Source: Scytonema hofmannii PCC 7110 | GTDB taxonomy: Bacteria; Cyanobacteriota; Cyanobacteriia; Cyanobacteriales; Nostocaceae | Reading direction: 5' to 3' | Assembly (NCBI RefSeq): GCF_000346485.2 | Contig: NZ_KQ976354.1 | Location: 11,118,341 to 11,182,340 of the forward strand | Length of the DNA: 64,000 nucleotides | Part shown: one piece after another, positions 38,172 to 62,799 of the stretch | Layout of the letters: each line of letters opens with the position of its first letter | How positions within the stretch are numbered: position 1 is the stretch's first letter | The notes under the pieces: generated by a model | The model's database searches: none | Told to the model about the DNA's origin: nothing | The model's input: only the letters and a program-made list of their open reading frames with translations | Program-made: the position numbers and the translations under genes

Positions 38172-39608
38172 TTAGTCCCCAGTCTCTGAGGGGATTCTCT
38201 GTATAGCTAGCATGGTAATGTCATCAAATTGGGGTGCATCATCAATATGGGCGAACAAATGAGTTTTGATGCGATCGAGTAAATCGCTAACTGACAAAGT
38301 AGGCTCCTCTAAAAGTTTTAGCAGTCGTTTGAGAGTAAAGAAATCACCGTTAGGAGCACGAGCTTCTGTCACCCCGTCTGTATAACCAATTAAAATGTCT
38401 TCCGGCTCTAATTGTACCTGATGAATTTTAAACTTCATATCTGGTATCATTCCTACTGCAGGTCCGGTAGGTTTAAGACTTGTCTTGACTCCTTGCGAGT
38501 TAACGATAAACAGGGGTTCATGTCCGGCATTGATGTAAGTTAGCGAGTGAGTCGCTGGATTTAACACTCCAAAAAAAAGCGTGGCGAACATACCCATTTG
38601 AGCATGATTTTGTGTGATGTAGTTGTTTGTTAGCTCAACAGCTTTGAGAGCACTGATTTGCTCTAGATCGGCTGGGCAAAGGTCATTAACATTGCAGCAC
38701 GAAACCTCATCATTACTTACTATAGACAAGCCATAGATACTAGTTTGTCCAGAAAAAATTCTGATTAAGCTACGGAACAAAGCCATAAAGAGTGCAGCTC
38801 CGACACCCTTATCACAAACATCAGCAAGAACTAATCCAAGGTAATTACCAGGAAGGATAAAAGCGTCGTAAAAATCACCCGCAACCTGACGAGCAGGATA
38901 AAAACACGTTGCAATTTCTAAGTTAGGTAGTTTTGGAATGTCGGTAGGTAAAAAATCTATCTGAATCTGCCTACCTTTTTCTAGTTCATCATCTAGCGCT
39001 CTTTTAGCTTGGGAAAGTTGATCGGTTTGCTTCTTTATTAGACGTGTTGCTAACTTATGAATTTGAGCTTGAGCTACCAGTAATTGATGTATATCTAACA
39101 ACTTATAAACTTCATTGTCAAATTTTACGACTAGCGGTTCCCTAAGTAATTCCGGAGGACGTTGTAAACATCGACTCGCCGCTTTGACAATTAACGTATT
39201 GCTATGCAAAACTAATACATCTGTTTCAACATAGGTGTATAAGCGACTGAGTGGAGCAGTAAAAAACAGTTCTCTGGCATAAGGACGGCTCAGAATTCTC
39301 AAGAATCGTTGGCGCGAAACTTTCCCCTTGAACTTCCCTTGCTCTGTTAGAATTGCTCCTGGCAGTAACGGATTTTGTTCAAAAGCTTTGGATAGGTCTT
39401 CCCCCAAGCAAGAGAGTTCTATTTGGAAATCATAAAGAGACAGTTCTTGCAAAGTGGACTCTAACTTAAGACTCTCAGATAATTCTTTAGAACGCTCTTG
39501 CTTAGAGCCGGACTGTGGAGGCTCGTGACAATCGGAAGGGGTTGGTTGGGCGTTGCCAATAACCTCGGATGACTCAGTGCTAGCGTTTATGAACTGATGA
39601 ATCAGCAT
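38172..39608 (-). CDS. PP2C-type (SpoIIE/RsbU) serine phosphatase with CBS-like N-terminus
   Basis: A 478-residue regulator of partner switching. Residues ~85-200 resemble the CBS-like input domain of cyanobacterial SpoIIE-type phosphatases (VSRQRFLRILSRPYARELFF to LLDIHQLLVAQAQIH). A short coiled coil follows (~200-232), then the PP2C domain with metal-binding motifs ARQVAGDFYDAF, LADVCDKGVGAALFMA, IGYTDGVTEAR and FDDITMLAI. It would dephosphorylate a STAS antagonist; two STAS proteins and an RsbW-like kinase lie at 48.9-52.5 kb on the other strand. An insertion rich in Cys/Asn (EVSCCNVNDLCPADL) breaks the PP2C core. ATG at 39608. Confidence 0.9.
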   Translation of the reverse strand: MLIHQFINASTESSEVIGNAQPTPSDCHEPPQSGSKQERSKELSESLKLESTLQELSLYDFQIELSCLGEDLSKAFEQNPLLPGAILTEQGKFKGKVSRQRFLRILSRPYARELFFTAPLSRLYTYVETDVLVLHSNTLIVKAASRCLQRPPELLREPLVVKFDNEVYKLLDIHQLLVAQAQIHKLATRLIKKQTDQLSQAKRALDDELEKGRQIQIDFLPTDIPKLPNLEIATCFYPARQVAGDFYDAFILPGNYLGLVLADVCDKGVGAALFMALFRSLIRIFSGQTSIYGLSIVSNDEVSCCNVNDLCPADLEQISALKAVELTNNYITQNHAQMGMFATLFFGVLNPATHSLTYINAGHEPLFIVNSQGVKTSLKPTGPAVGMIPDMKFKIHQVQLEPEDILIGYTDGVTEARAPNGDFFTLKRLLKLLEEPTLSVSDLLDRIKTHLFAHIDDAPQFDDITMLAIQRIPSETGD

Positions 39609-40030: not shown

Positions 40031-40141
40031 AAGAGTTTAGAGAAGTTTAGACAACAAGTCAGGATAATTTAACAAACTTTTTCGACAACAATTAAGCCTA
40101 ATTTAAATCTTCCTTATTCTAAATTTAACTAAATATTAACT

Positions 40142-40252
40142 CTATACAAGTTGGCTTACTTATATAGATAACCTCATAAGTAATCTTTAATAGAACAGTC
40201 CCTTTAGATTTAAGCAATCCAACGTAAATTAAAAATAAGATGAATCGAGGTT
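40142..40252 (+). promoter_or_regulatory. Conserved 111-bp element, copy A (upstream of halogenase/epimerase cluster)
   Basis: Aligns without gaps to 57852-57962, about 87 of 111 positions identical by hand count. Fully conserved blocks are CTATACAAGT, CCTCATAAGT and TAAGATGAATCGAGGTT. The 5' part forms a hairpin (CTATACAAGT with ACTTATATAG, one mismatch). It lies 160 bp before the VOC start. Shared promoter, operator or leader RNA. Confidence 0.7.
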
Positions 40253-40412: not shown

Positions 40413-41168
40413 ATGGCTGTAGGACAAGTAGCTAGTTCTTTTGAACAAAAAGCTTCCTCTGCTATTAGTAAGCAATTGAGAGGAGTTCACCATATTGGTC
40501 TCACTGTTGAGGACATGGGAAAAGCTTTAGAATTTTATACGGAGGTATTGGGTGGAAAAATCATAATTCCAGAAATCGGTCTTGCTGGCGAAGTTATGCA
40601 CAATACTTTGCTGCAAAAAGAAGAGATTGAAGCGATCGCCCTTGGAACCGATCCAAAAACCCTTGGTATACCCAACCTTAGAGATGGGGAACAAAATCTA
40701 GACCTTTATTTTATTCAGTTTGATAATGTTGTCCTGGAAATTCTACAGTACAGAGATGCTTCAGAGCAACCCAATGGTTCCGTAGCTTTCCCAGTAAAAA
40801 ATTCTTACTCCAGTCCAGCTTGCTTCAACTCAATGCATATATCCTTTTATTTAAAGGACGATGTAGATGTCGATGAGTTTGTGAACAACTTGGAAACAGA
40901 ATGTCACAAGCGCGGAATGGATCGAGTCAAATGTAATCGAATTGTTCGCGTCAAAACAGAACAGGAAAGGGCAAATACCGATCCACAGTACAACTCATGC
41001 AAACTATTTGACCCTTCCTTTGGAGATTTTGAAGGATGGACACTCGTTTACTGTAAAGGACCCAACGGAGAGCAATTGGAGTTTAATCAAGTGCTACGTA
41101 AAGCCAAAGTTTTGTTTGAAACAGCACAAGATGAGTATCAAAAAGAGAAAGCTGAAATTAATAATTGA
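40413..41168 (+). CDS. VOC (glyoxalase/dioxygenase superfamily) protein
   Basis: A 251-residue protein with a vicinal-oxygen-chelate fold. LRGVHHIGLTVEDMGKALEF, then YTEVLGGKIIIPEIG, is the first module with the metal-binding His. MHISFYLKDDVDVDEFVNNL opens the second module, and GPNGEQLEFNQVL supplies the Glu of the metal site. ATG at 40413 follows GAGAGGACTAGAGTT. First gene of the same-strand cluster behind the 111-bp element; 19 bp before the next gene. Substrate unknown; it could be an isomerase, lyase or dioxygenase of the cluster's product. Confidence 0.82.
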   Translation: MAVGQVASSFEQKASSAISKQLRGVHHIGLTVEDMGKALEFYTEVLGGKIIIPEIGLAGEVMHNTLLQKEEIEAIALGTDPKTLGIPNLRDGEQNLDLYFIQFDNVVLEILQYRDASEQPNGSVAFPVKNSYSSPACFNSMHISFYLKDDVDVDEFVNNLETECHKRGMDRVKCNRIVRVKTEQERANTDPQYNSCKLFDPSFGDFEGWTLVYCKGPNGEQLEFNQVLRKAKVLFETAQDEYQKEKAEINN

Positions 41169-41187
41169 AACAAGGAGATAAACAATC

Positions 41188-41754
41188 ATGCGTCAAAGAA
41201 TAAACTACTACAAAGATTTAGCTGCTGATTATTCAAAGGCTGGACTAGTTTCCGAAGAGCTTAAGGAAAGACTTATCCAGCTATCTAAAGAATTGATTTC
41301 CAAAAAAGAAGAAACTTTGCCACCAATTAGTTCTGACTATACTGCAAAACAAGTTGAACAAGAAAATAGGGACTGGTGGCCTACTCATTGTGAAGCATTA
41401 AGACAGGGACGCGGTGATTTGTTAACAGGTGAATATCGCGATGACCTCGTTTATTTATGCCAAGACGGTTACTATGTTGGCTTGACAGAACAACAAGAGC
41501 GAGAGCAACACTGGTGGGCATTGATTTCACAGCCCGGAGTCACTATGTGTTGGCCAATTGTCATGTTTCATGATGATGTGACTTATTTTGAATGGAAATC
41601 TGTAGATGACGAAACAGGTGAAACCATTGCAAAGGGGAACGTGACTTTCCTACGTCGCGGTCATAGAGGAGGCGTTTACTTAAAAACCGAACAGTTGACT
41701 TTCTACCGTGATGTCTTTGCATCTCCCGAACTTCTGAAGCTCATTAAACTCTAA
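41188..41754 (+). CDS. SnoaL/NTF2-like protein
   Basis: A 188-residue protein. The N-terminal 50 residues are helical (INYYKDLAADYSKAGLVSEE). The C-terminal cone-like domain has RDWWPTHCEALRQGRGDLLT, then YRDDLVYLCQDGYYVGLTEQ, VTMCWPIVMFHDDVTYFEWK and GNVTFLRRGHRGG. This resembles SnoaL-like/NTF2 domains, which include small-molecule cyclases and hydrolases. ATG at 41188 with AAGGAG upstream. 19 bp after the VOC gene, clearly one operon. Reaction unknown. Confidence 0.68.
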   Translation: MRQRINYYKDLAADYSKAGLVSEELKERLIQLSKELISKKEETLPPISSDYTAKQVEQENRDWWPTHCEALRQGRGDLLTGEYRDDLVYLCQDGYYVGLTEQQEREQHWWALISQPGVTMCWPIVMFHDDVTYFEWKSVDDETGETIAKGNVTFLRRGHRGGVYLKTEQLTFYRDVFASPELLKLIKL

Positions 41755-41757
41755 TAA

Positions 41758-41790
41758 GTTAACAGTCAATGGTCAATAGTCAATAGTTAT
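41758..41790. repeat. Short tandem repeat, AATAGTC/AATGGTC type
   Basis: Heptamers CAATGGT, CAATAGT and CAATAGT lie right behind the stop of the NTF2-like gene. Confidence 0.65.
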
Positions 41791-41865
41791 TGATTTCTGT
41801 TAATTACGGGCTATGAACCATTGACTCCCTATAAGTAGAGCTTTACTCCCTTCCCATCACACGAT

Positions 41866-41930
41866 TACCGATTTTCTTCCTTCGTGTCCTTTGCGTCTTT
41901 GCGGTTCATTCAAATAAGCAATTTTCAGGC
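41866..41930. repeat. Dispersed repeat, TTCGTGTCCTTTGCGTC type
   Basis: ATTACCGATTTTCTTCC, TTCGTGTCCTTTGCGTCTTT and GCGGTTCATTCAAATAAG recur almost unchanged at 62655-62728 in the phn operon. A shorter form lies at 46028-46062. Confidence 0.7.
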
Positions 41931-41995
41931 GAGATAGGATTAGTGCGATCGCAAACCTTCTTATTGACTTCTTTAAAAAAGGCTGTTGATCTCAT

Positions 41996-42658
41996 ATGAC
42001 AGATAAAAAAGGCAAAATAGGTGTAATTATCGAAGAATACTTTGGGGAGCTTGAGTATCAACAATTTAACCACTTCTTTCCCAGAAACGGATATGAAGTA
42101 GAATACATTTCTCATCTCTGGAAGCAAAAGCAACTTACTTTCAGAGGGCATGAGTATATATCAGAAGTAACTGTTACAACCGATTTTAAGAATGTTGACC
42201 CAACTGACTACAAAGGTATTCTCCTTATTGGTGGATATGCAATGGATCGCTTGCGATATCAAGTGAGTTGCCATCCCGATCAACCCAACCAATCTCCTGC
42301 TGTAGAGTTTCTCCGCAAAGCAGTGAAGGCAATGGATACCGATTTATTAAAGATTGGTACAATCTGTCATGGCTTGTGGCTGTTTTGTGCAGCACCAGAA
42401 CTTTTAAAAGGTCGTAGAGTTACCTGCATTCACAATATCATTGATGATGTGAAAAATGCCGGGGGAGCGATCGTGTATGAGGACGGTCAAACCCGATCTA
42501 CTTGTATCGATGGTAACTTAATAACAGCACGTCATCCAGGAGTGATCGACGAATTCCTTACAGTTTTTTTAGAAGAACTTGAAAAGAAGGATAAGGCAAC
42601 AAAACCCACCATTATAGAACCTTCTTTATCAATGCCAACACCTTCTAAAATAAGATAG
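41996..42658 (+). CDS. DJ-1/PfpI family protein (copy 1)
   Basis: A 220-residue class I glutamine amidotransferase-like protein. It starts TDKKGKIGVIIEEYFGELEY, has the acid VIIEE, the GGYAMDRLRY segment and the nucleophile elbow GTICHGLWLFCA with the active-site Cys followed by His. The family includes proteases, glyoxalase III and deglycases (YhbO, PfpI). ATG at 41996. A close paralogue lies at 43313, and a SIS-domain gene lies between them, so the gene was duplicated in place. It may remove glyoxal-type damage or act in the pathway. Confidence 0.85.
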   Translation: MTDKKGKIGVIIEEYFGELEYQQFNHFFPRNGYEVEYISHLWKQKQLTFRGHEYISEVTVTTDFKNVDPTDYKGILLIGGYAMDRLRYQVSCHPDQPNQSPAVEFLRKAVKAMDTDLLKIGTICHGLWLFCAAPELLKGRRVTCIHNIIDDVKNAGGAIVYEDGQTRSTCIDGNLITARHPGVIDEFLTVFLEELEKKDKATKPTIIEPSLSMPTPSKIR

Positions 42659-42676
42659 CCAGAGAAAAAACATAAT

Positions 42677-43279
42677 ATGGTACAAGTATATCATAGCCAT
42701 CCAGAAACGTCAGCGACTCTTCAAGAACACCTTACACAGGCAATTAATTTAGTTTTATCAGAGAACAAACGAGTTTTAGAAAAAATAGGTTATTCCGTAA
42801 TTGAACACCTTACCGAAAAAATTGCAGGTGCAGAACGAATATTTGTGATTGGAGAAGGTCGTAGTGGTTTGGTAATCCGCATGGTAGCAATGCGGCTGAT
42901 GCATTTAGGATATTTGGTTTACGTTTTGGGTGAAACGACTACACCATCCTTGAGAAAAGGTGATTTACTTATTGCCTTTTCTGGTTCGGGTAGTACGGGT
43001 AATGTTGCTATGATGGTTGCAAAAACAAAGAAAATAGGCGGTCATATTGTTGGTGTAACCACTCAATCAGAATCTCCTTTAGGAAAAATGGCTGATGTAT
43101 TGATTGAAATTGAAGCCGCCCCCAAACAAGACCACAGCTATCAGTATTCAAAACAGTATCCTGGTTCTTTGTTTGAGCAGGCTGCATTGCTTTTATTCGA
43201 TGCAATATTTCATGTTTTATCCCAAAGCTTAAATAAGAGTGCAGAAATGCTATGGGAAATGCATACCAATCTTGAGTAA
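42677..43279 (+). CDS. hxlB: 6-phospho-3-hexuloisomerase-like SIS protein
   Basis: A 200-residue SIS-domain protein. ERIFVIGEGRSGLVIRMVAM, then RLMHLGYLVYVLGETTTPSL and LIAFSGSGSTGNV, are the phosphosugar-binding motifs of PHI (HxlB). The C-terminal GSLFEQAALLLFDAIFHVL is family typical. PHI interconverts hexulose-6-phosphate and fructose-6-phosphate, with partner HPS (HxlA); no HPS gene is in the window, so here it may act on another ketose phosphate. ATG at 42677, 18 bp behind the first DJ-1 gene. Part of the cluster. Confidence 0.82.
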   Translation: MVQVYHSHPETSATLQEHLTQAINLVLSENKRVLEKIGYSVIEHLTEKIAGAERIFVIGEGRSGLVIRMVAMRLMHLGYLVYVLGETTTPSLRKGDLLIAFSGSGSTGNVAMMVAKTKKIGGHIVGVTTQSESPLGKMADVLIEIEAAPKQDHSYQYSKQYPGSLFEQAALLLFDAIFHVLSQSLNKSAEMLWEMHTNLE

Positions 43280-43312
43280 TGTGTAAACTCTTTCAAAAAA
43301 GTTGAGAAGAAT

Positions 43313-43942
43313 ATGACAACACAAACAAAGGGCAAAATCGGTATCCTTATTGAAGAACACTTTGATGAAACTGAGTATCGGCGATTCAATGAGTTTTTTC
43401 CAGAGCATGGATACGAAGTAGAATACATTTCTAATCTTTGGAATCAAGAGAGCCTTACCTTTAAAGGTAACGACCACACAGAAGAAGTAACAGTTACAGT
43501 TGATGTCAAAGATATTAATCTTTCAGATTACAAAGGGATTATCCTGATTGGCGGGTATGCCATGGATCGCTTGCGCTATCAAGTCCTTCCCAAACCCGGT
43601 CAGCCGAACCAATCTCCTGCTGTAGAATTTCTACGCCAAGCTGTAAAAGAGATGGATTTGGGAAATTTGAAAATTGGCACAATATGCCACAGTGTCTGGC
43701 TTTTTTGTGCCGATCCAGAACTTATTAAAGGTCGTAAGGTAACCTGCGCTCATAACATCATTTGTGATGTGGAAAATGCTGGGGGAATAGTCATGTATAA
43801 CGATGATGGAACCCTAAGTATATATGTAGATGGTAACTTGGTTACATCACAACACCCTGGGGTTGTCGAAGAATTTATGGAAGTTTTCTTACAGGAACTT
43901 GAAAAGAAAAATCAATCAACGACTCCTGCTCTAATAGGTTGA
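43313..43942 (+). CDS. DJ-1/PfpI family protein (copy 2)
   Basis: A 209-residue paralogue of the 41996 gene with the same sequence frame: GKIGILIEEHFDETEYRRFN, GGYAMDRLRYQV and nucleophile elbow GTICHSVWLFCADPE. The two copies keep the active-site Glu and Cys-His. ATG at 43313 with GTTGAGAAGAAT upstream. 33 bp after the SIS gene. Retention of both copies suggests different roles or a heteromer (inference). Confidence 0.85.
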   Translation: MTTQTKGKIGILIEEHFDETEYRRFNEFFPEHGYEVEYISNLWNQESLTFKGNDHTEEVTVTVDVKDINLSDYKGIILIGGYAMDRLRYQVLPKPGQPNQSPAVEFLRQAVKEMDLGNLKIGTICHSVWLFCADPELIKGRKVTCAHNIICDVENAGGIVMYNDDGTLSIYVDGNLVTSQHPGVVEEFMEVFLQELEKKNQSTTPALIG

Positions 43943-43983
43943 TTTTAAGGGATTTCCAGGAAATAAATTATCTTATACTGTAG

Positions 43984-44050
43984 GACGGGCGTCCCCGCCC
44001 GTCTTCTATATAGTGGCGGGTAGTGGCGGGCGAGGACGCCCGCACCACAA
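43984..44050. repeat. Two dispersed palindromes of the GCGGGCG family
   Basis: GACGGGCG/CGCCCGTC around TCCC (43984-44003), then GCGGGCG, AGGA and CGCCCGC plus CACCACAAG. Same family as 3979-4012 and 11994-12198. Separates the DJ-1 and AGE genes. Confidence 0.7.
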
Positions 44051-44153
44051 GAAATTTTGGAATATTTTTTTACTTGGAAGTCCCTAACTACTCACGATGA
44101 CAGGCGAGACGCCTGTCCTACACCACTAACAACTAACCAATGAACAATGAACA

Positions 44154-45971
44154 ATGAACAACATAAACTTTCCAATCTCAGACCTCATAGCTGGGTATGT
44201 GACCCACTTTGATGCAGAAAATGATATTTTTGGTATCAAAACTTCAGATGGCAGAGAATTCCACGCGGCCTTAAGTCCAATGACCTATGCCAAACTAGTG
44301 CAAAATTTAGAAGAACCTTACCCAGATGCTACTGGAGCCATGAGGTCTATGCTTGTACCAGGTCGGTATTTGTTTGCCTATGGTATTTTCTACCCGGATA
44401 GTTCTAAATTTGAAGCCAAACAAATTGTTTTCGTTGGTCGAACTGAAAACGATTATGTTTTTGAAAAACCTCACTGGTGGATCAAACAGATTCAGTCTCT
44501 GGCAGATTTTTACCTAAAAGCCCAGTTTGGAGAAGAAGAAATTGACTACCGCAACTATCGCACCGATTTAACTTTAGTTGGTGCTAAGCAAACCTACAAT
44601 TTTCGCCAAGAAACTGATACGATCTCGCGCATGGTTTATGGGTTTGCTAGTGCTTATCTGTTAACTGGCGAAGAGCGATTTCTCGATGCTGCTGAAAAAG
44701 GTACCGAATACCTGCGCGAACATATGCGGTTTGTAGATTTAGATGAAGGTATTGTCTATTGGTATCACGGCATTGATATGTATGGCGATCGCGAACACAA
44801 AATCTTCGCCTCAGAATTTGGTGATGATTACTATGCGATTCCAGCCTACGAGCAAATTTACGCCTTAGCGGGTCCGATACAAACTTACCGAATCACGGGC
44901 GATCCCCGTATCCTAAGCGATGCTCAGTTAACAGTCAAGCTATTTAACGACTTTTTCCTAGACAGAAGCGAGCATGGCGGCTACTTCTCTCATCTTGACC
45001 CTGTCACTCTAAACGCCCACAGCGATTCCCTTGGTCGTAACAAAGCAAAAAAGAACTGGAACTCTGTTGGCGATCATGCCCCAGCATACTTGATTAATCT
45101 CTGGTTAGCTACAGGTCAACCAGAATACGCCAAAATGCTGGAGTATACCTTTGACATAATTGCAAAACGGTTTCCAGATTGGGAGAACAGTCCCTTTGTT
45201 CAAGAACGTTTCTACGAAGATTGGTCAGCTGATACAACCTGGGGATGGCAGCAAAATCGTGCTGTGGTTGGTCACAACCTCAAAATTGCCTGGAACCTAA
45301 TGCGGATGTACAGCCTAAAACCCAAAGACGAGTACGTCGAACTAGCACAAAAAATTGCCCAAATCATGCCCGATGTTGGCAGTGACCAGCAGCGTGGCGG
45401 ATGGTACGACGTAGTTGAACGCCTTCTCGAACCAGGTCAAACGGCTCACCGCTTTGTCTGGCACGATCGCAAAGCTTGGTGGCAGCAAGAACAAGCTATC
45501 TTAGCCTACTTCATTTTAGCTGGTTTACTAAAAGACGAAGACCATCTCCGATTAGCACGTGAGTCTGCTGCCTTTTACAATGCTTGGTTCTTAGACACAG
45601 AAGACGGTGGTGTCTATTTCAATGTTCTTGCTAATGGTATCCCCTATCTCGTCAGTGGAAATGAACGTCGCAAAGGTTCACACTCAATGAGTGCATATCA
45701 TTCTACTGAGTTGTGTTATCTTGCCTCTGTCTACACTAATCTCCTGATTCATAAAAACCCAATGGACTTTTACTTCAAGCCCACTCCAGGAGGATTTCCC
45801 AATAATCTCCTACGAGTGTCGCCAGACATTTTACCCCCAGGCAGTATCAAGATTGGTGCTTGTGAAATCAATGGAGAAACCTACAACAACTTTGACGCTG
45901 AAAACTTAACCGTAACATTACCAGAAACGCAAGAGCCAGTCAAAGTCAAGGTGCAAATTATTCCTAAGTAA
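44154..45971 (+). CDS. AGE-family epimerase/isomerase with N-terminal extension
   Basis: A 605-residue protein. The N-terminal ~110 residues (LIAGYVTHFDAENDIFGIKT onward) form a small beta-rich domain not found in the classical enzyme. The rest is an (alpha/alpha)6 barrel of the N-acylglucosamine 2-epimerase/cellobiose 2-epimerase superfamily. Motifs include TISRMVYGFASAYLLTGEER, GGYFSHLDP, GHNLKIAWNLMRMY and HDRKAWWQQEQAILAYFILA, whose conserved His residues match the epimerase active site. ATG at 44154. It probably isomerises a sugar at C2 in the cluster's pathway; the substrate is unknown. Confidence 0.8.
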   Translation: MNNINFPISDLIAGYVTHFDAENDIFGIKTSDGREFHAALSPMTYAKLVQNLEEPYPDATGAMRSMLVPGRYLFAYGIFYPDSSKFEAKQIVFVGRTENDYVFEKPHWWIKQIQSLADFYLKAQFGEEEIDYRNYRTDLTLVGAKQTYNFRQETDTISRMVYGFASAYLLTGEERFLDAAEKGTEYLREHMRFVDLDEGIVYWYHGIDMYGDREHKIFASEFGDDYYAIPAYEQIYALAGPIQTYRITGDPRILSDAQLTVKLFNDFFLDRSEHGGYFSHLDPVTLNAHSDSLGRNKAKKNWNSVGDHAPAYLINLWLATGQPEYAKMLEYTFDIIAKRFPDWENSPFVQERFYEDWSADTTWGWQQNRAVVGHNLKIAWNLMRMYSLKPKDEYVELAQKIAQIMPDVGSDQQRGGWYDVVERLLEPGQTAHRFVWHDRKAWWQQEQAILAYFILAGLLKDEDHLRLARESAAFYNAWFLDTEDGGVYFNVLANGIPYLVSGNERRKGSHSMSAYHSTELCYLASVYTNLLIHKNPMDFYFKPTPGGFPNNLLRVSPDILPPGSIKIGACEINGETYNNFDAENLTVTLPETQEPVKVKVQIIPK

Positions 45972-46168
45972 TCAAGCAACAATTGCACTATAGCAATCCT
46001 CAATCATTTGTAAAATTTTCTCTTCTCTCTTTTCTTTGCGCTCTTTGCGTCTTTGCGGTTAATAATTCTTATAACTCAATAGGACTGCTATATTCTGTTC
46101 TTGCATCTATAACGGGCTCTTATCATCACTCAAACAAAAAGTCAAACAACTTACAGGAAAATCCTTCG

Positions 46169-47650
46169 ATGTCTATTCTACCCAGTCATACACAAGTATT
46201 AGTTATCGGTGGCGGTCCTGCCGGTTCTACCGCTGCTACTCTTCTGGCTCGTGAGGGCTTTGATGTCACATTATTAGAGCGAGAAGTTTTCCCTCGCTAC
46301 CACATTGGCGAATCGCTCTTACCGGCTGCGTTAGAGATATTCGATCTGTTAGGTGTGCGCGAAAAAGTAGAAGCCCACGGCTTCCAATACAAGCCAGGAG
46401 CTCGCATAGATTGGCGATCTGAGGCATGGAACGTCAAATTTGAGCGATCGGTAAAGACTCACACCTACAGTTATCAAGTTCGCCGTGACGAATTCGACCA
46501 ATTGCTCTTAGAGCATGCCAAAAGCCAGGGAGTTAAAGTTTTTGAGGGAATTGAGGTCAAGAGTCTGTCTTTTGAGGGAGAAAGACCCCGGAGTGCAGCT
46601 TGGTCTCAGATTACTGGAGGAAGTGAGACTGGAGAAGCGTCCTTCGACTTCCTGATTGATGCATCGGGTCGCGCTGGAATTATGTCAACGCGTTACTTAC
46701 GCAACCGTCGTGATGCCAATGCATTCCAGAATATTGCCACGTGGGGGTACTGGAAGAACGCAAAAAGGTTACCCAATGGTTTCGAGGGCGCGATTTCTAC
46801 TGTCACTATCCCGGATGGCTGGGTGTGGGCGATCCCGCTTTCCGATCAAACAATGAGTATTGGTGCAGTGTACCCCAAATCAGTTTATAAAGAAAAACGG
46901 CAGGCGTCTCTGAGGGATTCTTATATTCAGGCGATCGCAGGCAATCCTTTAATAGAGGATATGATTAGCTCGGCAGATCTGGTATCAGAGGTGCGCGTTG
47001 AGCAAGATTACTCATATACAGCTAACCGTTTTGCTGGACAGGGCTACTACTTATTAGGAGATGCAGCGTGCTTTCTAGACCCCTTACTATCCACTGGCGT
47101 TCATCTGGCAATGTACAGCGCCGTGTTAGCAACAGCCAGCCTTGCTAGCGTCGTGCGTGGTGAAGTAGAAGAAAATCTTGCAATAGCTTTCTTTGAGAAA
47201 AGTTATAGTCGATCCTACCTGCGCTTGATGATGTTGATAGCAATCTTCTACAACAAAAACTGTAATTCAGATGCTTATCTTTCCGAAGCCTATCAGCTCA
47301 GCCGCTACAAGTCCGAATCATCTAATGATATGGAGTCCAAGACAGAGTCGTTTATAAACTTAGCAACTGGTCTTGAGGATATCTGGGATGCTTATAACCC
47401 TACACCCAGTCAGGTTTTAGGAGAGATATCGGAGCGTCTGGAGAAAAGCCTCAATTTTCTGGAAGAAGAGCGGGGTGCTGATACAAGAGTGAAGCCCAGC
47501 AAGTTGCAGAAGACAAATGCCCAATTTTTTGAGGCGATCCAGGAATTCATTTCACTATCTGCACCAGGATCTGGCGACGATTTGTATGTTGTAACCAAGC
47601 CAAGGTTGGGAATGGGAAAAGCAAGCGCTCCGATTTTACAAAATGTTTAG
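46169..47650 (+). CDS. FAD-dependent monooxygenase of the halogenase family (GGGPAG and WxWxIP motifs)
   Basis: A 493-residue flavoprotein. The FAD-binding GGGPAGSTAA is at residues 14-23, followed by FPRYHIGESLLPAALEIFDL, and WVWAIP at 218-223 matches the WxWxIP signature of flavin-dependent halogenases. A second FAD motif is YLLGDAACFLDPLLSTGVHL. The ~110-residue C-terminal region is helical and variable. ATG at 46169 is chosen because the upstream in-frame extension (45983-46168) is repeat-containing and unlike the family. Whether it halogenates or only oxidises a substrate cannot be told. The next gene encodes an O-methyltransferase, the usual tailoring partner. Confidence 0.82.
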   Translation: MSILPSHTQVLVIGGGPAGSTAATLLAREGFDVTLLEREVFPRYHIGESLLPAALEIFDLLGVREKVEAHGFQYKPGARIDWRSEAWNVKFERSVKTHTYSYQVRRDEFDQLLLEHAKSQGVKVFEGIEVKSLSFEGERPRSAAWSQITGGSETGEASFDFLIDASGRAGIMSTRYLRNRRDANAFQNIATWGYWKNAKRLPNGFEGAISTVTIPDGWVWAIPLSDQTMSIGAVYPKSVYKEKRQASLRDSYIQAIAGNPLIEDMISSADLVSEVRVEQDYSYTANRFAGQGYYLLGDAACFLDPLLSTGVHLAMYSAVLATASLASVVRGEVEENLAIAFFEKSYSRSYLRLMMLIAIFYNKNCNSDAYLSEAYQLSRYKSESSNDMESKTESFINLATGLEDIWDAYNPTPSQVLGEISERLEKSLNFLEEERGADTRVKPSKLQKTNAQFFEAIQEFISLSAPGSGDDLYVVTKPRLGMGKASAPILQNV

Positions 47651-47681
47651 CAAGTGTTTAAGTAGCTCTAGGAGAATTAAC

Positions 47682-48740
47682 ATGACTCAAGCAATTGATA
47701 AATCTGCAATTAATCCCATTCCCCAACCACAAACAGATGGTACACAAGTTTGGGATGCAATTGTTGGTCTGCACGGTCACCCAACAGTGCTAGTAGCGCA
47801 TGAACTGAAACTATTTCCGTTGTTGGCAGAAACACCACGCACTTTGCAGGAGATTAGTCAAAGCCTTAATCTTGCACCACGAGCAGCAAGTGCAGTTTTA
47901 TCTATATGCACTTCAATGGGTTTTATTCAACTCAAAGATGGATATTACTCCCTGACTCTTGTCGCTTGTGAATATCTTCTTGAAAGCAGTCCCACTTCTT
48001 TTTGTGGGTGGTTGGACTTAATGATCGCTAATGCTAATTCTTTCTCTTATGAAGGAATTAAGGAAGCTATATTAACAGATGCTCCTGTTGTTTACGAGGG
48101 TGATTCTCTCTATAAGGTTCACGAACAAGAAGATAAAGATGAGCAAACTCGCATTTTTACACGAGCTATGCATTCTGCAAGTGTAGCTCCTGCTTTGGCT
48201 TGGCCTACAGCTGTGGATCTTTCTGGTAATACACATATGTTAGATATTGCTGGAGGTTCTGGCGCTCACAGCATTGGTGCGACTCTCAAATGGTCTAACT
48301 TGCGATCGACTATTTTGGACATTGCACCAGTTTGCCAAGTTGCACAAGAGTATATTGCTCAGTACAAGCTGCAAGAACAGATTAGCACTCAAGTCAGTGA
48401 TATGTGGAACGATCCTTTCCCGTCTGCCGATCTGCACTTTTACTCGCTGATTTATCACAATTACGATTTAGAGAAAAATCGTTTTCTCACTAAAAAAAGC
48501 TTTGATTGTCTTGAGCCTGGTGGACGGATAATTATTCATCAATGGTTATTTAATCACGATCGCACGGGACCACTTGCAACAGCTGCATATAATATTATGA
48601 TGCAGCTTTGGTGTGCTGGAGGGCAGGAATATTCTGATGTGGAATTATCAAATCTTTTAGCTGAGGTTGGGTTTGTTAATATTGAAGTTAAACCGACTTT
48701 TGGCTACTGGAGTATTGTGACTGGACGAAAAATTAATTAA
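47682..48740 (+). CDS. O-methyltransferase (hydroxyindole/caffeate OMT type)
   Basis: A 352-residue SAM-dependent enzyme. The N-terminal winged-helix dimerisation domain has HPTVLVAHELKLFPLLAETP, then RTLQEISQSLNLAPRAA. The catalytic domain has motif I MLDIAGGSGAHSIG, and LIYHNYDLEKNRFLTKKSF and CLEPGGRIIIHQWLF in the usual places. It resembles the acetylserotonin/polyketide O-methyltransferase family. ATG at 47682 is preceded by AGGAG at 47670-47674. 31 bp after the flavoprotein stop, so they are co-transcribed. It would methylate a hydroxyl of the cluster product. Confidence 0.85.
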   Translation: MTQAIDKSAINPIPQPQTDGTQVWDAIVGLHGHPTVLVAHELKLFPLLAETPRTLQEISQSLNLAPRAASAVLSICTSMGFIQLKDGYYSLTLVACEYLLESSPTSFCGWLDLMIANANSFSYEGIKEAILTDAPVVYEGDSLYKVHEQEDKDEQTRIFTRAMHSASVAPALAWPTAVDLSGNTHMLDIAGGSGAHSIGATLKWSNLRSTILDIAPVCQVAQEYIAQYKLQEQISTQVSDMWNDPFPSADLHFYSLIYHNYDLEKNRFLTKKSFDCLEPGGRIIIHQWLFNHDRTGPLATAAYNIMMQLWCAGGQEYSDVELSNLLAEVGFVNIEVKPTFGYWSIVTGRKIN

Positions 48741-48872
48741 TAATAATCTGCTTGGATTGATGGAATTAATGGTTTTTGAACCGCAGAGAACGCAGAGAAC
48801 ACAGAGGAAAGAGAATGGAGATTTTTACGATTGAATTAGCATTGCTTGTGAACTACACATAGGGCTTTTAAG

Positions 48873-49211
48873 ATGGAAATCAAAACCCTGACAGTTGAAG
48901 AGGTCATGTTGGTAGAACTGGCGGGTGAAGTGGATGCAAATACTGCACCGATAATTCAAGAGAAAGTTTTACCCCTAACCCTGCCAGGTAATAAGATTCT
49001 GATAGATTTGAGCAAAGTGCCTTATATGTCCAGTACTGGCTTGCGGATGCTCCTGTCGCTCTACCGACGGACAAACGCTCAGGATGGGAAATTAGTACTA
49101 GTAGGGCTTTCAGAAGAAATTCAAGATATTATGTCTGTGACTGGATTTCTTGATTTCTTTATGACTAGCGAAACGCTTGAATCGGGATTGTTGCTAATGG
49201 CTAATGGCTAA
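48873..49211 (+). CDS. STAS-domain anti-sigma factor antagonist (first copy)
   Basis: A 112-residue SpoIIAA/RsbV-like protein. VELAGEVDANTAPIIQEKVL and LSKVPYMSSTGLRMLLSLYR are the STAS hallmarks; Ser54 in YMSSTGLR is the expected phosphorylation site. It would bind an RsbW-like kinase when dephosphorylated by a SpoIIE-type phosphatase. The last residues LLLMANG and the stop run into a GCTAATGG repeat. ATG at 48873. One of two STAS genes in the cluster, with GlgX between them. Confidence 0.88.
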   Translation: MEIKTLTVEEVMLVELAGEVDANTAPIIQEKVLPLTLPGNKILIDLSKVPYMSSTGLRMLLSLYRRTNAQDGKLVLVGLSEEIQDIMSVTGFLDFFMTSETLESGLLLMANG

Positions 49212-49352
49212 TGGTTAATGGTTAGTAGTTAATAGTTAATAGCTAATAGTTAATAGCTAATAGGAATTAGTCATTAGCCATTAACAACTAACAACCAACA
49301 ACCAACAACTAACAACCAACAACTAACAACTAACAACTAACAACTAACAATT
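49195..49352. repeat. Heptamer arrays in inverted orientation (TAGTTAA and TAACAAC types)
   Basis: GGTTAAT/AGTTAAT/AGCTAAT units (49195-49262) are followed by complementary CATTAGCCATTAACAACTAA units (49270-49345). The two blocks could fold on each other. They fill the STAS-glgX gap. Confidence 0.8.
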
Positions 49353-49364
49353 AGCATCATCCAT

Positions 49365-51494
49365 ATGGAACGCATTGATATTCATCCAACGCATAGCTAT
49401 AAGAATTTCAAATTGCGCTGTGGGCGACCGTTTCCTTTTGGTGCTACTCTTGTACCGGGAGGTGTGAATTTCTCAATTTTTTCTAGCTATGCTAAATCTT
49501 GTACTTTAGTACTTTTTAAAAAGCATGCACTTGAGCCATATGCAGAAATTCCGTTTCCTGATGAATTTCGCATTGGCAATGTCTTTCGTATGGTTGTATT
49601 CGACTTAGACTACGAAAATATTGAATACGGCTATCGCATGGATGGACCTTTTAATCCGAAGGAAGGTCACTGGTTTGATGAAAGCAAAATTCTCTTAGAC
49701 CCCTATGCTAAAATTATAGGTGGTCGCGATATCTGGGGAACTTCTCCTGATTGGAGTGATATCTACCAACATCGTGCGCGTCTCGCTTTTGACGACTTTG
49801 ATTGGGAAGACGATCGCTATGCAGAAATTCCACCGGAAGATTTGGTTATCTATGAGATGCATGTGCGTGGCTTTACCCGTCATGCTTCTTCTAAGATTAA
49901 GCATTTAGGAACCTTTGCAGGTATCCGTGAAAAAATCCCTTACCTAAAGGAGCTAGGTGTCAATTGTATTGAACTCATGCCTATTTATGAGTTTGATGAG
50001 TTTGAAAACAGTCGCCTTAACCCAGAAACTGGAGACTTGCTTTTAAATTACTGGGGTTATAGCACTGTAGGTTTCTTTGCTCCCAAGGCTGGTTATGCAG
50101 CTTCTGGGAAATGGGGAATGCAGGTTGATGAGTTTAAAGCCCTTGTCAAAGCACTACATAAAAATGGCATTGAAGTCATACTAGATGTGGTCTTTAACCA
50201 TACAGGGGAAGGTAACGAGTACGGTCATACAATTTCTTTCCGAGGAATTGACAATAAAACGTACTATATGCTAACTCCCGATGGGTATTACTTTAACTTT
50301 AGTGGTACTGGCAACACGCTCAACTGCAATAATCCTATTGTTCGCACTATGGTGCTTGATTGTCTGCGCTACTGGGCGAGTGAATATCACATTGATGGCT
50401 TCCGCTTTGATTTAGCCACTATTTTAGGACGTGACCCTTGGGGAGCACCGTTAACTAACCCTCCGTTACTGGAATTACTTGCTTTTGACCCGATTTTGGC
50501 TAAGTGCAAACTGATCGCTGAAGCTTGGGATGCGGGTGGTCTCTATCAAGTTGGTAGTTTCCCTGCTTTTGGTCGCTGGGCTGAGTGGAATGGCAAGTAC
50601 CGTGATAGTATTCGCAAATTCCTCAAAGGCGATCCCGGTCAAGTGGGAGAGTTTGCACAACGGCTACAAGGTTCACCAGACTTGTATGCTAAGGCTGGGC
50701 GGGGACCAGCAACATCTATTAATTTCATTACAGCACACGATGGATTTACTCTAGCTGATTTAGTTTCTTATAACGGGAAACACAACGAGGCGAATGGTGA
50801 ATATAACAACGATGGTTGTAATGATAATGACAGTTGGAATTGTGGTGCTGAAGGATGGACGGAGGATTGGGGTATCCTTTCTTTGCGTCAAAGGCAGATG
50901 AAAAATGCGATCGCCATGCTGCTAGTCAGTCAGGGTGTACCCATGATTCTTATGGGGGATGAAATGGGGCGCAGTCAGTGCGGTAATAACAATACCTATT
51001 GCCACGACAACGAATTTAACTGGTTGGATTGGAATCTGTTGGAACTCAATGCCAACTTATTTCGGTTTGTCAAAAACTGCATTGCCTTCCGCATGGCTCA
51101 CCCAGTTCTCAGAAATCGGTACCATTTTCGCAATATTGACTATGTGGGAAGCGGCTACGCCGATATTACTTGGCATGGCACTCAAGCTTGGAATGCAGAT
51201 TGGTCTGAGCATAGTCGGACTCTCGCTTTCATGCTTTGTGGTAAGCACGCTAAGGGAGGTACTGTTCAAGATAACTACATTTATGTAGCGATGAATATGC
51301 ATTGGGAAACACACTGGTTTGAAATTCCAGGCTTGCGAGATGGGATGAAGTGGCACGTATTTGCTAACACTGGAGCACTTCCACCAGAGGATATCTGGGA
51401 ACCAGGAACAGAACCAGTACTAGAAAATCAATCTGGAATGATCGTAGGCGATCGCTCTGTTGCAGTCCTTATATCAGTGACCAGTGACCAGTAA
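49365..51494 (+). CDS. glgX: Glycogen debranching enzyme (GlgX/isoamylase type, GH13)
   Basis: A 709-residue GH13 enzyme that hydrolyses alpha-1,6 branches of limit dextrins. The N-terminal CBM48-like part has GATLVPGGVNFSIFSSYAKS. The catalytic barrel has VILDVVFNHTGEGNEYG, the nucleophile region DGFRFDLATILGRDPWG, the acid/base LIAEAWDAGG and ITAHDGFTLADLVSYN. All three carboxylates are present. The C-terminus ISVTSDQ and stop are provided by the TGACCAG repeat. ATG at 49365 follows long heptamer arrays. Its place between two STAS genes suggests glycogen mobilisation under the same stress control. Confidence 0.92.
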   Translation: MERIDIHPTHSYKNFKLRCGRPFPFGATLVPGGVNFSIFSSYAKSCTLVLFKKHALEPYAEIPFPDEFRIGNVFRMVVFDLDYENIEYGYRMDGPFNPKEGHWFDESKILLDPYAKIIGGRDIWGTSPDWSDIYQHRARLAFDDFDWEDDRYAEIPPEDLVIYEMHVRGFTRHASSKIKHLGTFAGIREKIPYLKELGVNCIELMPIYEFDEFENSRLNPETGDLLLNYWGYSTVGFFAPKAGYAASGKWGMQVDEFKALVKALHKNGIEVILDVVFNHTGEGNEYGHTISFRGIDNKTYYMLTPDGYYFNFSGTGNTLNCNNPIVRTMVLDCLRYWASEYHIDGFRFDLATILGRDPWGAPLTNPPLLELLAFDPILAKCKLIAEAWDAGGLYQVGSFPAFGRWAEWNGKYRDSIRKFLKGDPGQVGEFAQRLQGSPDLYAKAGRGPATSINFITAHDGFTLADLVSYNGKHNEANGEYNNDGCNDNDSWNCGAEGWTEDWGILSLRQRQMKNAIAMLLVSQGVPMILMGDEMGRSQCGNNNTYCHDNEFNWLDWNLLELNANLFRFVKNCIAFRMAHPVLRNRYHFRNIDYVGSGYADITWHGTQAWNADWSEHSRTLAFMLCGKHAKGGTVQDNYIYVAMNMHWETHWFEIPGLRDGMKWHVFANTGALPPEDIWEPGTEPVLENQSGMIVGDRSVAVLISVTSDQ

Positions 51495-51510
51495 CCAGTG
51501 ACCAGTGAGT
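51475..51510. repeat. Short tandem repeat, TGACCAG heptamer
   Basis: Five units covering the last codons and stop of glgX and continuing downstream. Confidence 0.85.
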
Positions 51511-51610
51511 TAATGCTGCAAGAAGCTTTTTTCTCTGGGCGATTGGGTCAATGACAAACCGATTACTGATTTAATCCAAAATCCAAAATCCCTCAATCCA
51601 AAATTGAACT

Positions 51611-51949
51611 ATGACTTTTAACGCCAGTTTAGAAACAAACAACGATATTGCTACAATTACTCTCTCTGGAGAACTTGATGCAAATACAGCACCAGTGTTT
51701 AAGGAGAAGGTAGAAGAAGTCACAACGCAAAATGTCAAACGTCTTGTTTTGCTAGTACAAGACTTAGAGTATATGTCTAGTGCAGGTTTAAGGGTACTGA
51801 TCTTTGCAAAGCAAAAGATGGGACCGAAGGTTGATATTTACATAGTAGGTGCTCAAGAAATGGTAAAGGATACTATTGAGCACACTGGTTTCCATTATAG
51901 TGTGGTGATGCTTGATGGATATAACGAGACTGAGATACAACATGTGTAA
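51611..51949 (+). CDS. STAS-domain anti-sigma factor antagonist (second copy)
   Basis: A 112-residue RsbV/SpoIIAA-like protein. ITLSGELDANTAPVFKEKVE and VQDLEYMSSAGLRVLIFAKQ are STAS motifs, and Ser57 is the likely phospho-acceptor. Similar in length and framework to the 48873 protein but clearly diverged. It lies 112 bp before the RsbW-like gene, the usual kinase partner. ATG at 51611. Confidence 0.88.
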   Translation: MTFNASLETNNDIATITLSGELDANTAPVFKEKVEEVTTQNVKRLVLLVQDLEYMSSAGLRVLIFAKQKMGPKVDIYIVGAQEMVKDTIEHTGFHYSVVMLDGYNETEIQHV

Positions 51950-52061
51950 ACCAGCACCTTTTCCCCACTTTTTAAGGAGGGGTGCTTGATACAACAGACT
52001 GACGCTATTCGCTCTGCAATCAATTGCAGAGCCATTGGAGCATTTTTGCATAAAAATAACA

Positions 52062-52490
52062 ATGATGGAACAATTAATAGAACAATTAACTGTGCCTGAT
52101 TCTCTGGATTCGTTAACAGCGATCGCTAAGTACGTTATGGCTGTGGCAAGTACTGCTGGATTGGATAAAAAAGCTTCTTATAAACTTCGCTTAGCAGTAG
52201 ATGAAATTGCCACGAATATCATTATTTATGGTTATCAAGAAGCAGGTCGCGCAGGAGTGCTAGATTTACAAGCAGAAGTTACCGAACAACATCTAATTAT
52301 CTGTATGGAAGATACTGGTTTACCTTATGACTCCACGCAAACAGATACTCCTGACAATCTTGATAAGCCTTTAGAAAATCGGCAAATAGGCGGCTTAGGT
52401 GTATACCTTGCTATTCGTAGTGTTGATAAGTTCATTTATGAACGAATCGGGAACCGAAATCGAAATATTTTTATTGTCAATAGGAGTTAG
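52062..52490 (+). CDS. RsbW-like anti-sigma factor/serine kinase (HATPase)
   Basis: A 142-residue GHKL ATPase. The N-box is LRLAVDEIATNIIIYGYQEA (Glu48, Asn52), the G1 box CMEDTGLPYD, and the G2 region NRQIGGLGVYLAIRSVDKF. No sensor or phosphoacceptor domain, so it is the small anti-sigma/kinase type that phosphorylates STAS proteins. ATG at 52062 is chosen over the longer frame because it directly precedes the first conserved strand; ATG at 52065 is also possible. Together with two STAS genes and the PP2C phosphatase it forms a complete partner-switching set. Confidence 0.88.
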   Translation: MMEQLIEQLTVPDSLDSLTAIAKYVMAVASTAGLDKKASYKLRLAVDEIATNIIIYGYQEAGRAGVLDLQAEVTEQHLIICMEDTGLPYDSTQTDTPDNLDKPLENRQIGGLGVYLAIRSVDKFIYERIGNRNRNIFIVNRS

Positions 52491-53658: not shown

Positions 53659-55413
53659 CTAGAAAGTGAATGTTGCCCGGACAGAGCCTACATAAATGTT
53701 GTCATTGTTACTATTATGTTCTGGATTAAAAATGATAAATGCCCCAGGAGTGATGGCGAGATTGTCAGTCATCTTGAAGCGATAGAAAGCTTCCAGATGG
53801 TATGAGGTATCTCGATCTTCACGAGTACTGATATCGTTATCTGTTACTTTAGGCGGCATACCGAATACAAAACCTAGTAGGCTTCCTTTTGATCCCACAT
53901 CAAACAAACCTAAAGTTACTGCCCAGTTCCAAATCTTAGCACTATCTCCTTTTGTGATTGCAGCGCTTCCACCATCTTCAGCGATCGCAGTCGTGTAACC
54001 AGCCCAACCAGATAGGGATATGCTAGGGCTGAACCGTAAATTGGTTTGGAATCCATAGTGATTGGCAGAAGTTGCAATGTTACCGAAGGGTTGATTGGCA
54101 AAGATGCTACCAGTTGTACCTGAAACTTGGACACCGCCTGCAGGATTATAGTAGGAATGCACATAGGTGAAACCTAAGTTAATCACATCATTAGGTCGAA
54201 ACGCTAACTGAGCTAAAGCTGCATAAGAACCATCGTAGAGTCCAAACTTATCATTTGGGTTATTGGCGACTCTAGGGTTCGTCATATAGCCCAAAGATAT
54301 AGCAAGTGGCTTACTAAAGTTATAGGTTAAAGTAGCTCCTGTACCTTCAGCACTTTGACGGTAGATGGGACTGAAGCGCCCGAATCGGGAGAGCGCACCA
54401 CTACCACTTGGATCGAAGCCCGGATTGAAGTTAAACATATTGTCATTGAACTCACCTCCAACTGCTGACACATAGACAACCGCCTGCGACGTCAAGGGGA
54501 AACGATATTCCAATTTTTGGAGGAAGACATCGTTGTTATCATCATTCCCGTCATACCCCAATCGGGTCATATTGGTACCTGTTACTCCGGTATTAAATGG
54601 AGTAATATTTCGGGCTTGCAGACGGGTTTGCAGCCGATCTTTACCAGTGAAACTAGTTAGCAAGTTCAAGCGTACCCGATCGGAGAAGATAGTGTTGAGG
54701 TCTAAGTCAGGATTGGAAGCAGTATTACCAGAAGGAACAGCCCTTTCATCACCAAAAACATCAGCAACAGTAAAGATGACTTCACCAACGAGTTTAGTGG
54801 TAGCGGAAAACTGATTGGCTTCCAATTCAGCAGTTCGTGCTTCTAACGCATCTACTCGACCCCGTAGAGTTGCTAGTTCAGCAGCAAATTCTTCCTGTAA
54901 TCGCTGCAAGGTTGCTAAGTCTTCTTTTCTGACTAATTCAGCTGTTGCTGTTGCAATCAGTTCGTTAACCCTATCCAGACAAGCATTTAAACCAGCTGCA
55001 AACTCATAACGGGTCAAAGCACGGTTACCACGATAAGTTTCATTGGGATAACCAGCAATACAACCATAGCGTTCAACTAAAGACTGCAATGCTTGGAATG
55101 CCCAATCAGTTGGTTGTACATCAGAGAACTGAGAAACTGATGTGACTTGAGACTGAGAATTTTTCTTTCCTTGGTTACTGTACTGATTAACTTGCTCTAA
55201 AACTTCACTAGTTTCTTGAACAGTAGTCATATCCATTACAGAAGTTTGAGCTAGCTGTATGCCTGTTGACACATTTGCTTGCACGATGGCGTCTTCCAAA
55301 TTATCAATGCCAGCTGCAGATGCCTTGGCAGACACAATACCATTCGTTAGTAACAAGATGATGCCCAAGGCGGCTGACCATACTTGTAAGTTATTCCAGA
55401 GGATGATTAACAT
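53659..55413 (-). CDS. Iron-uptake porin (SLH domain plus OprB-type barrel)
   Basis: A 584-residue outer-membrane protein of the cyanobacterial Som/iron-uptake porin family. The signal peptide is VWSAALGIILLLTNGIVSAK. The SLH domain is SQFSDVQPTDWAFQALQSLV, then ERYGCIAGYPNETYRGNRAL. A coiled coil follows (LRGRVDALEARTAELEANQF), then the beta barrel ending in VRATFTF with the terminal Phe needed for outer-membrane assembly. ATG at 55413 is preferred to TTG at 55437. It neighbours the PhnF-like regulator and may supply the outer-membrane route for the phn system (inference). Confidence 0.88.
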   Translation of the reverse strand: MLIILWNNLQVWSAALGIILLLTNGIVSAKASAAGIDNLEDAIVQANVSTGIQLAQTSVMDMTTVQETSEVLEQVNQYSNQGKKNSQSQVTSVSQFSDVQPTDWAFQALQSLVERYGCIAGYPNETYRGNRALTRYEFAAGLNACLDRVNELIATATAELVRKEDLATLQRLQEEFAAELATLRGRVDALEARTAELEANQFSATTKLVGEVIFTVADVFGDERAVPSGNTASNPDLDLNTIFSDRVRLNLLTSFTGKDRLQTRLQARNITPFNTGVTGTNMTRLGYDGNDDNNDVFLQKLEYRFPLTSQAVVYVSAVGGEFNDNMFNFNPGFDPSGSGALSRFGRFSPIYRQSAEGTGATLTYNFSKPLAISLGYMTNPRVANNPNDKFGLYDGSYAALAQLAFRPNDVINLGFTYVHSYYNPAGGVQVSGTTGSIFANQPFGNIATSANHYGFQTNLRFSPSISLSGWAGYTTAIAEDGGSAAITKGDSAKIWNWAVTLGLFDVGSKGSLLGFVFGMPPKVTDNDISTREDRDTSYHLEAFYRFKMTDNLAITPGAFIIFNPEHNSNNDNIYVGSVRATFTF

Positions 55414-55619
55414 TGTTTTATTCTCACACCTTAACAAACTAAAGCTGTAAATTTTTCAACAGGTTTAGTTCTTAATTTATAGGGTGTGTGTTAAGTCTTT
55501 AGAAGCCGTTTTATAAAGAACTACTTATGAGCACTTTCATACAAGTCATATGACTTGTATATTTATTCTAGTATCTGATTGACTGGACAAAATACGATAT
55601 CACACAACATCTTGATTGT

Positions 55620-57844: not shown

Positions 57845-57884
57845 AGGCAACCTATACAAGTCGAGTTACTTGTATAGGTTGCCT
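57845..57884 (+). promoter_or_regulatory. Perfect 17-bp stem-loop at the start of element copy B
   Basis: AGGCAACCTATACAAGT (57845-57861), loop CGAGTT, and its complement (57868-57884). A possible -35 TTGCCT (57879-57884) lies at its 3' end, with TATAAC (57901-57906) 16 nt on. The copy at 40142 keeps the stem with one mismatch. Operator, promoter or RNA hairpin. Confidence 0.5.
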
Positions 57885-59231: not shown

Positions 59232-59232
59232 T

Positions 59233-60787: not shown

Positions 60788-60789
60788 AG

Positions 60790-62604: not shown

Positions 62605-62654
62605 AAGCGAGAGCACGCGAACAATCAGCCACTACTCCATTCGGTTCTATAAAA

Positions 62655-62728: not shown

Positions 62729-62799
62729 GGGAAAAAAGTAAGTATCCTGCATTCTTTTATCAGCGTCCATCAGCGTTCATCTGCGGTTCAAAAACAACT

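Follow-up and report, generated by a model that had tools for sequence, protein, structure and literature searches.

A predicted PhnF operator-promoter shared by phosphonate, porin, carbon-control and terpene genes in Scytonema hofmannii PCC 7110

Introduction

Why should an operon for phosphonate use and an operon once described as an unknown pathway be preceded by nearly the same 111 base pairs? Both operons lie in the stretch of Scytonema hofmannii PCC 7110 DNA analysed here (the window: 64,000 nucleotides of contig NZ_KQ976354.1, positions 11,118,341 to 11,182,340 of the forward strand). A preliminary description of the window proposed either a promoter/operator common to the two operons or a leader RNA.

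In Mycobacterium smegmatis, PhnF is a GntR-family regulator that is reported to bind two sequences in a promoter region, and phnDCE is its reported target (PMC7866108). Among cyanobacteria, phnF is noted as the regulator in the phn clusters of Nodularia spumigena and other species, and Trichodesmium IMS101 and Synechococcus JA-2-3Ba have no phnF (PMC5955973). The terms 'Pho box', 'promoter' and 'GntR' are absent from the text of that paper as available, so no operator is described in it. Su et al. (2007) predicted SphR sites before the phn operons of three cyanobacteria, and passages on phn in their paper make no mention of a PhnF operator (PMC1906773). In open-licence literature, at the level of titles and the opening of abstracts, we found neither a cyanobacterial PhnF operator nor a phosphonate-controlled terpene cluster.

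Results

Eight copies of the element in one region

Copy a (positions 40142-40252, plus strand) and copy b (57852-57962, plus strand) align without gaps at 87 of 111 positions, exactly as counted by hand in the preliminary description, and BLASTN, run against the 12.3-Mb genome, joins them at E = 1.4e-19. The conserved blocks and the 5' hairpin are present in both as described, and the distance to the first gene, given earlier as 130-160 bp, is 160 bp from the end of copy a to the ATG at 40413 and 134 bp from the end of copy b to the ATG at 58097. The number of copies was underestimated at two: a third lies in the window and five more just beyond it, making eight in the genome. Copy c (55452-55562, minus strand) is identical to copy a at 64 of 111 positions and to copy b at 63 of 111 in an ungapped window scan, and the 3' block is absent from it.

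A pattern drawn from copies a, b and c, searched through the genome with at most three mismatches, gives three exact matches (a, b and c) and four that differ at two positions; these seven lie within 53 kb. Its single three-mismatch match, at 9.89 Mb (C1:9890183), was taken as chance; a backward control pattern gives two matches. A sequence-only profile (R1), trained on seven copies from this genome (G000) and one from a genome of another family (G216), finds eight matches in the whole genome at E ≤ 5.2e-9, of which seven belong to the training set and copy h does not. All eight fall in G000:C1:11158479-11211319, a 53-kb region that makes up 0.43% of the genome. Beyond them, R1 matches copy b read in reverse (E 0.128), and its sole match outside the region, at C1:9699244 with an E value of 0.86, was likewise taken as chance.

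The promoter-like siting claimed for the first two copies extends to all eight, each of which lies upstream of a gene on its own strand. The predicted -10 hexamer is 36 to 374 bp from the first gene in seven of the eight; copy e is the odd one, at about 1150 bp.

Gene units downstream of the copies

Copy a precedes an operon (40413..52490, plus strand) that encodes, in order, a VOC protein, a 188-aa protein without a family match, DJ-1, HxlB, DJ-1, an AGE-like protein (so labelled from a weak NCBIfam match only), a flavin halogenase-like protein and an O-methyltransferase (together 45983..48740, plus strand), STAS, GlgX, STAS and HATPase. A gene for an icfG-like SpoIIE/PP2C phosphatase (38172..39608, minus strand) diverges from copy a. 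Two STAS proteins, an isoamylase, an anti-sigma kinase and a PP2C phosphatase thus occur together here. The same set, its two STAS-type members being antagonists, is listed for the icfG cluster of Synechocystis PCC 6803, which is tied to carbon regulation (gene list of PMC12329169). Unlike the PCC 6803 cluster, this one is near phn under a shared element, its phosphatase gene is divergent, and the halogenase-like gene, the methyltransferase and HxlB are inserted. Counterparts of these three are absent from the operons seen in G216, G051, G091, G165 and G120. The label of an unknown pathway therefore has to be narrowed: by gene content the operon is mostly of the icfG carbon-control type, with the halogenase-like gene and the methyltransferase inserted, and we read the rest of it as an icfG-type operon apparently placed under the phn element.

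Copy b precedes the phn C-P lyase operon (58097..64000 and on past the window to phnL, plus strand), from phnD onward; PhnD, PhnJ and PhnM are named by family and the other phn genes from gene order and similarity. Copy c precedes an SLH/OprB porin gene (53659..55437, minus strand; NCBIfam 'iron uptake porin'). The five remaining copies are all on the plus strand, and their positions continue the window numbering past 64000. Copy d (66804) leads into dxs, terpene synthase, P450, polyprenyl synthase, cytidylate kinase, ispG, dxr and ispH. Copy e (80660) overlaps a small ORF that matches no Pfam family, with a second porin gene about 1.15 kb downstream, and copy f (84813) precedes a Gfo/Idh-type oxidoreductase, a GMC oxidoreductase and an O-methyltransferase. 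Copy h (90025) precedes metK and a metF-like gene, and copy g (92867) a gene whose product weakly matches squalene-hopene cyclase and on our reading may be a diterpene cyclase, followed by phnM.

Copies d, e, f, h and g thus accompany the terpene, MEP and SAM genes in the roughly 28 kb between phnL and phnM, two genes that are adjacent in G518, a genome of the same class but outside the order. This block (G000:C1:11185000-11213000) includes the terpene synthase, P450, MEP genes, a second metK and the metF-like gene. A copy-number check that covered the metK and dxr of the block finds both to be second copies, the others lying at C1:2972641 (77%) and C1:9261080 (79%). An alkaline phosphatase-like gene (G000:C1:11215852-11217213, minus strand; NCBIfam match below cut-off) follows phnM, and no element copy was found before it.

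A candidate Pho-type promoter in the 3' half

In an alignment of 15 copies (eight from this genome, five from G216 and two from G518) the element reads, in order, TATACAAGT, N6, ACTTGTATA, about eight bases, CATAA, TTTAATA, CTT, ATTTAA and TAnnnT. The TAnnnT hexamer is present in 15 of 15 copies, about 11 bases past the last TTTAA; these block counts lean towards conservation, since the models used to find the copies contain the same columns. We take TAnnnT as the probable -10 hexamer, which is TAAATT in copy a (40225..40230, plus strand), TAGATT in copy b (57935..57940, plus strand) and TAAATT in copy c (55474..55479, minus strand). The predicted transcript start, AAGATGAATCGAGG, is conserved in several copies (window positions 40225-40260 and their equivalents), in some with an ATG; a role in initiation, or a very short ORF, is possible.

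The TTTAA-type boxes between the inverted repeat and the -10 hexamer were scored with a Pho-box matrix; of the 30 rows of such boxes given by Su et al. (PMC1906773), 25 went into it. Averaged over the eight aligned copies at 46 offsets, the score is highest at offsets 0 (3.2), 11 (3.6) and 34 (2.6); offsets 10 (1.2) and 33 (0.3) are also positive, and all remaining ones are not. Measured against the three tandem 8-mers with 3-bp linkers given in that paper, two boxes are in register (0 and 11), one stands at 34 and none at 22. The 8-bp boxes and 11-bp spacing are those of the cyanobacterial Pho regulon (PMC1906773), unlike which the boxes here are degenerate and placed after an inverted repeat. 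Between the end of the last box and the -10 hexamer are about 10 bp, as the same source says of PhoB. Absolute scores are modest, at 4.5-9.2 bits per pair in the element copies. Of the four pstS genes over the cut-off in this genome, two carry, just upstream, pairs of 13.4 and 13.5 bits; a third reaches 10.0 bits and the fourth has none of at least 9 bits. Over a 121-kb region, 74 places on the two strands reach at least 9 bits; copy g is the sole element to do so in the proposed register, and copies b and h contain places at this level on the reverse strand. Upstream of phnF itself, by 413 bp, are three tandem Pho-box-like 8-mers with 3-bp linkers (56806..56835, minus strand), whose two overlapping pairs score 14.2 bits each. 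We also note four tandem Pho-box-like 8-mers at 11-bp spacing in window positions 40102-40142, abutting the inverted repeat of copy a.

The fit of the matrix at these offsets and the boxes before phnF, set against the modest scores, make Pho-type activation, most likely by SphR, a likely though unproved reading. A variant that shares most of this explanation would leave PhnF on the 5' half and assign the 3' half to another promoter class, served by a special sigma factor or a SAM-linked signal. It draws on the modest scores, on the position of copy h before metK, and on two genomes of one other genus in which the same half, with the inverted repeat absent, lies upstream of metK (G147:C5:297724-297795 and G065:C1:6780036-6780103). 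We consider this variant possible but the less probable choice, given that the 11-bp spacing agrees with an independently derived matrix, that the last box stands from the -10 hexamer as stated for PhoB (PMC1906773), and that phnF has its own three tandem boxes.

The inverted repeat and a PhnF-like regulator

The preliminary description held the element to be neither palindromic nor tandem. This is incorrect in part, since the 5' side is an inverted repeat with a 15-bp stem in copy b. In copy a the repeat is CTATACAAGT-N6-ACTTATATAG (40142..40167, plus strand), with one mismatch between the arms, and in copy b CTATACAAGT-N6-ACTTGTATAG (57852..57877, plus strand). The symmetry is real: 85.0% of cells pair in the alignment, compared with 18-55% when one arm is slid by one to three columns. 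A weak reverse match (40100..40170, minus strand; E 0.0079) covers the repeat of copy a and points at the PP2C gene (38172-39608), whose orthologue in G216 has an element copy of its own.

The site bound by M. smegmatis PhnF is TGGTATAGACCA, which resembles ACTTRTATAGACAAGT. A scan with three 16-bp palindromes, their consensus picked after the sites had been seen, gives nine places within three mismatches. Two are nearly complete HutC-like palindromes with one mismatch, in a phn promoter of G518 and one of G216; of the other seven, three lie in the G518 phn-porin spacer or in copy h and four elsewhere. These palindromes suggest two ACTTRTATAGACAAGT-like 16-bp sites with centres 22 bp apart, of which TATACAAGT and ACTTGTATA would be the inner halves, an arrangement in which the half-sites face outward rather than in the usual inward order. 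The exact 17-mer TAAGATGAATCGAGGTT occurs in six stretches of a contig database, none with a cyanobacterium in its title.

A candidate to bind this repeat is encoded beside copy c (55620..56393, minus strand). The protein has the winged helix and the UTRA domain of the GntR/HutC family, both over cut-off (GntR 74.1 bits, cut-off 27; UTRA 95.5 bits, cut-off 23.8). Its best NCBIfam match is TIGR02325 (PhnF) at 155.7 bits, 1.1 short of the cut-off of 156.8, and we accordingly name it PhnF-like. Among solved structures the best sequence matches are YvoA/NagR (E 1.5e-28) and DasR; 3f8m, the PhnF of M. smegmatis, gives E 2.5e-8, so that by sequence the regulator is closer to YvoA/NagR.

The gene beside copy c is the only PhnF homologue of this genome at E ≤ 1e-30, a threshold passed in five of 291 genomes searched within the order. 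Extended to the class at E ≤ 1e-60, the scan finds PhnF in two of 388 genomes, including this one, and adds G518. In the genomes searched, PhnF about 60% identical or more occurs in three (G000, G216 and G518), and the element is present in all three, diverged in G518. In each of them phnF lies beside or in the phn operon and the element precedes phn. In the three genomes whose PhnF is 45-51% identical (G253, G118 and G169) no full copy was found, with a partial match in G253 (E 0.06); the drafts of G253 and G118 comprise 290-380 contigs, so a copy there may have been missed.

The best inference from these data is that the PhnF-like repressor reads the element. Should some other local or global regulator bind the operator, with PhnF a mere neighbour, the element would still be a shared promoter, and the 1.1-bit shortfall in the TIGR02325 score as well as the outward half-sites could be counted in favour of this. 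We regard it as unlikely, because no second PhnF homologue exists in the genome at E ≤ 1e-30, phnF adjoins copy c, and full copies are found solely in genomes with a close PhnF.

The hairpin is kept as sequence rather than as an RNA stem

A leader RNA was the other proposal of the preliminary description. Such an RNA, common to the operons, could be a riboswitch or attenuator whose hairpin and closing CCTC/GAGG pair sense a metabolite. It would suit the stable folding of copy b (z = -3.74) and the conserved transcript start, but copy a folds no better than its shuffles (z = -0.29) and no Rfam family matches the window at gathering thresholds. Pairing between the arms (85.0% of cells) is equalled by shuffled partners (83.9%), and changes on both sides of the stem occur in one cell, against a shuffled mean of 3.4. 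The arms thus appear to be kept as sequence, in the manner of protein half-sites. In addition, TAnnnT lies downstream of the hairpin, which, judged from this predicted -10, would place the stem outside the transcript. With arms that do not covary and a predicted start beyond the repeat, we abandon the leader RNA as very improbable.

The element in other genomes

BLASTN with copy b detects the element in only one of 291 genomes of the order, its own, so a profile is needed for relatives. The order scan with the profile gives a match of any kind in five of 388 genomes and full copies in two, this genome and G216. G147 and G065 match over the promoter half alone, and the match in G340, weak and inside a coding stretch, was taken as chance. 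G216 has copies before phnD, before an MFS-phnG-H-I-J-K operon, and before both the PP2C gene and the VOC operon. A fifth sits past phnF, at the edge of its contig; a porin gene is expected past this edge, as another contig ends in a porin. To this extent the proposed promoter/operator common to phosphonate use and the other pathway is borne out: the element stands before both operons here and again in G216. In G518 a divergent pair of weak, diverged copies precedes phnD and a porin gene (E 6e-6 and 0.0016, model positions 11-99 and 22-103), and a clear first half-site is absent from them.

VOC relatives occur in 19 of 237 genomes, including G000 and G216. A second profile (R2) has no match at E ≤ 5 in 26 loci with about 1.5 kb of flank each (19 of the 21 VOC places, G000 and G216 left out, three PhnF-relative loci and four pstS loci). 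In nine larger loci the sole R2 matches are at the metK promoters of G147 and G065; none falls in the larger stretches of G051, G091, G165, G055 and G120. With VOC relatives elsewhere lacking the element, the link to icfG is confined to G000 and G216. In the stretch of G051 that was seen, the isoamylase and one STAS gene are missing. In many genomes (for example G055) VOC relatives about 50% identical sit in open frames of 400-1190 aa, and so seem fused to other domains.

Within a genome, identity reaches 77% between copies a and b (aligned core), 72% between a and e, and 83% between the phn and porin-side copies of G216, whereas copies at the same position in different genomes are 63% (phn), 53% (porin) and 58% (VOC) identical. 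Such values are consistent with promoter copying inside each lineage, with the proviso that many pairs from one genome show no higher identity than pairs drawn from two. An ordinary dispersed or MITE-like repeat standing before genes by chance would also leave duplicated copies, as the 77% and 83% identities show these to be, but is the least credible reading, since the eight copies are neither spread genome-wide nor scattered among unrelated genes, every one of them is oriented toward its downstream gene, the blocks are conserved while the spacers vary, and the element precedes phn in three families.

Discussion

That the element is a shared operator-promoter, and that it links the operons, is well supported. 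As a whole we think it probable that it combines a PhnF operator with an activator-dependent, presumably Pho-type, promoter and defines one local regulon. The 5' end (TATACAAGT-N6-ACTTGTATA) would be the operator for the local PhnF-like GntR/HutC repressor. The TTTAA-type boxes that follow are placed as for a Pho-type response regulator and would replace the -35 element, with the TAnnnT -10 and the transcript start coming next. PhnF would keep the copies repressed unless bound to a ligand, which may be phosphate itself, a phosphonate or an intermediate of C-P lyase, and an activator, most likely SphR, would raise expression during phosphate starvation. The eight copies would then form a single local regulon of phn, two porins, the icfG-type operon with its insertions and the terpene/MEP/SAM block.

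This arrangement shares with M. smegmatis a GntR-family regulator beside a phnDCE transporter, and departs from it in scope, from the phnDCE target there to eight units here, including porins, carbon control and the terpene block (PMC7866108). With NagR and DasR, to which it is homologous by sequence, the regulator shares a UTRA domain and would share palindromic operators as described for those GntR/HutC proteins (PMC4333415, PMC4918961); it differs from them in the outward pairing of the half-sites and in the genes concerned.

A further step, to which we give an even chance, is that a terpene cluster with its own MEP and SAM supply, its product perhaps methylated and halogenated, moved into the C-P lyase operon, and that the phn operator-promoter was copied before each unit, so that PhnF and phosphorus limitation would turn on phosphonate use, carbon control and terpene synthesis as a single programme. 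Many silent cyanobacterial gene clusters have no known trigger. If the proposal is true, the trigger of this terpene cluster would be predictable from sequence, as low phosphate, phosphonate or loss of phnF. PhnF would gain an operator and a regulon in cyanobacteria, phosphorus scavenging would be linked to icfG carbon control, and a gene cluster would have taken over the promoter of its host operon by copying it.
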